Position numbers and translations under genes: made by a program. The notes below the pieces were generated by a model. The model saw only the letters and a program-made list of their open reading frames with translations, was not told the origin of the DNA and did no database searches. DNA of 64,000 nt from Dasypus novemcinctus (taxonomy: Eukaryota > Chordata > Mammalia > Cingulata > Dasypodidae): contig NC_080699.1 in NCBI RefSeq assembly GCF_030445035.2, positions 1,116,001 through 1,180,000 of the forward strand, written 5' to 3'. Below are positions 917 through 1,047 of this stretch, in pieces (positions within the stretch are counted from its first letter, which is position 1; every line of letters begins with the position of its first letter).

Positions 917-1047
917 ACTGTACTTGAAGGTGAATTCTGGCAGATGGCGTGGGGGAGGGAGAAGACCGTGGCCAAGCCCCAGATGGCCGCGATGCCCACG
1001 ACGCCTTGGGTGGCCGAGAGCCGGGGCTTCAGCGGGTGCATGATGAC
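917..1047 (-). CDS. GPR83: GPR83 coding exon 3, apparently frameshifted
   Basis: Third coding exon of GPR83, a seven-transmembrane class A receptor. The minus strand has an acceptor (ccccag) followed by codons for VIMHPLKPR, then a TM4-like stretch ending SLPHAICQ, all matching the remembered human protein. After ICQ the frame reads NSPSSTV and then TGA. The expected end of the exon, FTFKYS, is present but in another frame. The exon is 131 bp to the donor gtgagt, where about 135 bp would be expected if the next junction is in phase 0, which suggests a 4 bp deletion next to the CAGAAT codons. A second donor two bases earlier (gtgtga) would give 129 bp and a readable frame with an altered second extracellular loop. 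The phase of exon 4, outside the window, decides between a broken gene, a shifted donor and an error in the sequence. The gene and exon identity are secure; its coding status is not. Confidence 0.85.

Follow-up and report, generated by a model that had tools for sequence, protein, structure and literature searches.

Does the nine-banded armadillo still possess a working GPR83, a receptor of the brain with ties to energy balance and appetite? The question arises in a window of 64,000 nucleotides (C42:1116001-1180000, the whole stretch of DNA analysed), where a preliminary description of the sequence reported a 4-bp deletion in GPR83 exon 3 and offered gene loss, a shifted splice site and a sequence error as explanations. 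Our analysis favours the first of these: GPR83 in this assembly is very probably a unitary pseudogene. What decides this is exon 4 and not the exon 3 deletion by itself. This exon lies outside the window, 1.65 kb past exon 3 on the same contig, within the 50 kb of flank examined.

On sequence evidence, we take the locus to be the true orthologue of GPR83. Identity to GPR83 is found in all four exons, and the gene is preceded by MRE11 exons that run in the same direction, which argues that it is GPR83 and not a paralogue; GPR83 beside MRE11 is also the gene order of human 11q21. The MRE11 exons comprise 1014 nt in one open frame, with AG at all 10 acceptors and GT at all 9 donors. In GPR83, exons 1 to 3 have AG/GT borders at all expected places and together match Pfam 7tm_1 (E 5.5e-34), with the class A signature present. 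Exon identities come from a frameshift-tolerant alignment against a provisional human GPR83 sequence, which agrees at 21 of 21 positions with residue numbers in excerpts of PMC3546042 and PMC5148169, the mouse-only positions H27, H42, H321 and H331 being left out of the comparison. Solved structures searched with the GPR83 frames returned 29 matches, the best being the prolactin-releasing peptide receptor; no GPR83 entry was among the 29.

We also considered GPR83L, which passages in PMC6504862, PMC8356427 and PMC10901801 describe as a second GPR83 subtype. Like the present gene it is a relative of GPR83, but chicken GPR83L is placed beside HEPH on chromosome 4 (in a passage of PMC8356427), whereas the gene here adjoins MRE11, and synteny rules this identity out. 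The locus shares with GPR83, an orphan class A receptor and proposed PEN receptor, its MRE11 synteny, four-exon layout and identity in each exon, but differs in that its frame is broken five times and one base too many stands where exons 3 and 4 join. A single open frame through seven helices is absent from the deposited gene.

Table. Features of the GPR83 locus and its surroundings (positions in the window unless a contig is given; identities are to the provisional human GPR83 sequence).
Feature	Position	Strand	Description
GPR83 exon 1	4307..4666	-	120 codons, ATG at 4666, donor TTG/gtaagg; 74/120 identical, 0 frameshifts, open
GPR83 exon 2	1695..1820	-	42 codons, AG acceptor, donor CAG/gtgagg; 40/42 identical, 0 frameshifts, open
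GPR83 exon 3 as deposited	917..1047	-	131 nt to donor AGT/gtgagt; 34/43 identical, one frameshift
Site of 4-nt shortfall	935..936	-	between Q208 and F211
Last exon base for weaker upstream donor	919	-	ACA/gtgtga, 129 nt; score 2.41
GPR83 exon 4	from C42:1115266 downwards	-	136/203 identical, four one-base frameshifts
Minisatellite, intron 3	129-337		
Minisatellite, intron 1	4053-4302		
Minisatellite, upstream	6059-9095		17-nt GC-rich unit, about 175 copies, 3-kb array
MRE11, ten 3' coding exons	22411..63526	-	to TAA stop; used as a marker of synteny and as a control for sequence quality

The exon 3 deletion is confirmed. Mouse GPR83 has C207 and E217 (in an excerpt of PMC3546042); these enclose nine residues, so 27 nt are expected after the C207 codon if S216 is the last codon of the exon, compared with the 23 nt found from TGC to the gtgagt donor. 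The alignment places a single break at K209/L210. Read from 1047 down to 917, one frame gives 37 residues followed by NSPSST, and another ends in EFTFKYS at the donor, bearing out the observation that the conserved FTFKYS is out of frame; when the 20 nt of the tail were shuffled 200,000 times, FTFKYS never arose by chance. The reported switch to NSPSST is therefore real, but the TGA said to follow it is not in the message: it straddles the 917 donor, starts in the intron when that donor is used, and is absent from both spliced forms. The deposited length of 131 bp to gtgagt also holds, while the ancestral length, given earlier as about 135 bp, may have been either 134 or 135 nt because exon 4 starts with T after AG.

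That T alters the consequence of the deletion. The exon 4 acceptor reads ccag/T-GAG-GAC, and joining it to the 917 donor (131+1 nt) leads back into the exon 4 frame (EDLVRALC). Given the extra base at the junction and the 4-nt loss, 917, the standard donor, keeps frame, and the protein would not be cut short by the deletion in exon 3 on its own. The additional base may have been inserted at the donor (ancestral TACAG/gtgagt) or at the acceptor. The donor two bases upstream had been put forward as a means of avoiding the stop; it fails in that role, since with the deposited acceptor the next codon is TGA (205 aa) and the donor is the weaker of the two (2.41 vs 6.46 at 917, by a provisional weight matrix). 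A start of exon 4 at GAG, with 919 in frame (440 aa) and 917 stopping at 264 aa, was rejected because no AG precedes GAG. Were the T outside exon 4, the GAG-start reading would hold, with exon 4 broken even so.

The phase of exon 4 had been named as a possible route to an intact receptor. The 917 junction does restore the frame, but exon 4 itself is broken, with frameshifts near I254 (+1), K264 (-1), R285 (+1) and V298 (+1); tblastn of the exon gives two blocks in two frames, agreeing with the alignment. The I254 and K264 lesions offset one another, leaving the end of TM5 scrambled. Those at R285 and V298, before and in TM6, have no counterpart that would restore the frame; TM6, TM7 and the tail are lost from the reading and can be recovered only from a different frame of the exon. 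Exons 3 and 4 thus carry five frameshifts in all, one and four, respectively. The deposited spliced reading is 524 aa from the 917 donor (against 205 aa from 919) and consists of TM1 to TM5, in which the start of loop 2 and the end of TM5 are scrambled, and a remainder in the wrong frame. The ancestral frames contain no premature stop from substitutions, and the motifs DRH, CWLP and NPFLY, presumably class A receptor motifs, persist, each in its own frame, indicating that the decay is not deep.

The mutual offsets, of the 4-nt loss by the junction base and likewise of the first two exon 4 lesions, together with an exon 2 identical to the provisional human one at 40 of 42 residues, are what might be expected if unusual splicing (extra small introns, another donor or acceptor, or an alternative last exon) kept GPR83 functional, with an altered loop 2 and intact TM5 to TM7. 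We consider this highly improbable, as the 919 donor, joined to the deposited acceptor, runs straight into TGA, the last two lesions have no offset, TM6 and TM7 are encoded in a different frame of exon 4, and that exon is single-copy in the assembly among the best candidates scored.

For other copies, the assembly (3,610,404,205 bases in 546 contigs) was searched and the best candidates were scored. For exon 1 there was one match at 100%, the other five being at 37-46%, and for exon 3 DNA a single match. With the protein of exons 2 and 3, two of 23 matches fall at the GPR83 locus and the other 21 are at 41% or less; with exon 4, two of 40 are at the locus and the remaining 38 at 43% or less (best 150 of 153 candidates). 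Among the candidates scored, the 3.61-Gb assembly thus yielded no further copy of GPR83, and exon 1 found no relatives in collections of other genome contigs and viral contigs.

If the breaks in exons 3 and 4 were assembly or base-calling artefacts of GC-rich sequence, GPR83 would be intact in the animal. The setting lends this some plausibility: exon 4 is 71% GC, the first 10 kb of the window range from 0.65 to 0.85 per kb, minisatellites lie close to GPR83, and conserved motifs persist in the broken frames. Exons 1 and 2 (486 nt) are without lesion and exons 3 and 4 have five, a distribution with P of 0.08 if lesions fall evenly within the gene, making a local fault conceivable. Control coding sequence, however, contains no frameshift in 2070 nt, some of its exons being as GC-rich as exon 4. 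MRE11 is unbroken through a 220-nt exon at 72% GC, and an SSTR5-like gene runs for 352 residues at 72% GC without a frame break; outside that count, a FUT4-like gene about 180 kb off on the same contig has an open frame of 543 aa. Were lesions even over control and GPR83 exons, all five would fall in exons 3 and 4 with P of 0.0006. Further, for six lesions examined with 17 nt of surrounding sequence, the longest run is 2 (five lesions) or 3 (one), and one lesion is a loss of 4 nt. The unbroken GC-rich controls and the position of the lesions outside long homopolymers thus disfavour sequence error, which we regard as unlikely.

What is found is therefore what characterizes a unitary pseudogene: no intact copy elsewhere among the best candidates, and more than one disabling lesion, which sequence error is unlikely to explain. 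In the deposited sequence exon 3 is four bases short where extracellular loop 2 begins, a shortfall that the extra junction base offsets if the 917 donor and ccag/T are used; in exon 4 come the +1/-1 pair near the end of TM5 and then the two +1 lesions without offset. A product lacking TM6 and TM7 would be unable to couple to G proteins and would have no receptor function. The message would probably escape nonsense-mediated decay because its wrong-frame stop lies in the last coding exon, and the protein would presumably be destroyed by quality control.

The loss is most likely inherited in the lineage rather than a private variant, and the armadillo probably lacks a working GPR83. We lean towards the fuller account that GPR83 was lost for good in an armadillo lineage, making it a natural knockout; a neighbourhood rich in GC and minisatellites may have favoured the decay through higher indel rates. 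From five events in ~1.24 kb, with frameshift indels taken at a tenth of an assumed neutral rate (2.2e-9 per site per year), the loss would date very roughly to ~18 million years ago, with several-fold uncertainty. A decay clock based on exons 1 to 3 alone was superseded by exon 4; it had assumed a stop fraction of 0.045, higher than the 0.023 measured.

GC3 in GPR83 exons 1 to 3 is 0.95-0.98, and G, A, R and P residues show 29 gains and 3 losses relative to the provisional human sequence (the direction of change is not polarised). MRE11 has the same amino-acid bias, with 28 gained and 0 lost, and an intact frame, so a GC-rich setting as the cause of GPR83 decay is speculation. GC-rich regions are reported to carry divergent genes in gerbils (PMC7574485). 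As in gerbil genes such as Pdx1 (excerpts of PMC6573468, PMC7403616 and PMC7574485), very high GC3 and gains of G, A, R and P occur together in GPR83 exons 1 to 3; unlike in those genes, the direction here is not polarised, and MRE11 is equally biased without frame loss. The array of 17-nt units lies upstream of GPR83 and stops about 1.4 kb short of its start codon.

Gene loss of this kind has precedents, with AANAT, ASMT, MTNR1B and UCP1 given as xenarthran unitary pseudogenes in a portion of PMC7613276. Like these, GPR83 is single-copy, in place and broken by small frameshift indels, and it probably adds one more gene to this class. Literature on GPR83 with armadillo, pseudogene or gene loss yielded, among the matches listed, no title reporting GPR83 loss in a xenarthran; the match for GPR83 and armadillo concerns eyelid epithelium. 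The ligand of GPR83 is disputed (per an excerpt of PMC10606834), and mouse knockouts are reported to be protected from diet-induced obesity (in part of PMC4300838). If the loss is true, a placental mammal is a natural knockout for this orphan receptor, which has links to energy balance and to spinal touch and pain circuits, and would help to show which functions depend on it. The loss might also belong to a broader reduction of thermogenic control, xenarthrans being already without UCP1 in the account excerpted from PMC7613276.

Several features of the surrounding sequence were also observed. The MRE11 exon at 38632-38413 (minus strand) abuts a GC-rich tandem repeat and makes its in-frame join to the next exon via a donor, gttgcgct at 38405-38413, that is far from consensus. 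Dispersed tRNA-headed repeats (D1-D5), some called as tRNA genes by tRNA tools, lie scattered between window positions 20021 and 47895 and look like armadillo DAS-SINEs. The DAS-SINE name is linked to the nine-banded armadillo in a passage of PMC3183009. On another contig, C48:12452778-12672012 contains three Glyco_transf_10 matches at intervals of 109,370 and 109,371 bases. Downstream of every match is a piece in which two stops occur; this segment is a recent triplication with a broken fucosyltransferase-like gene.
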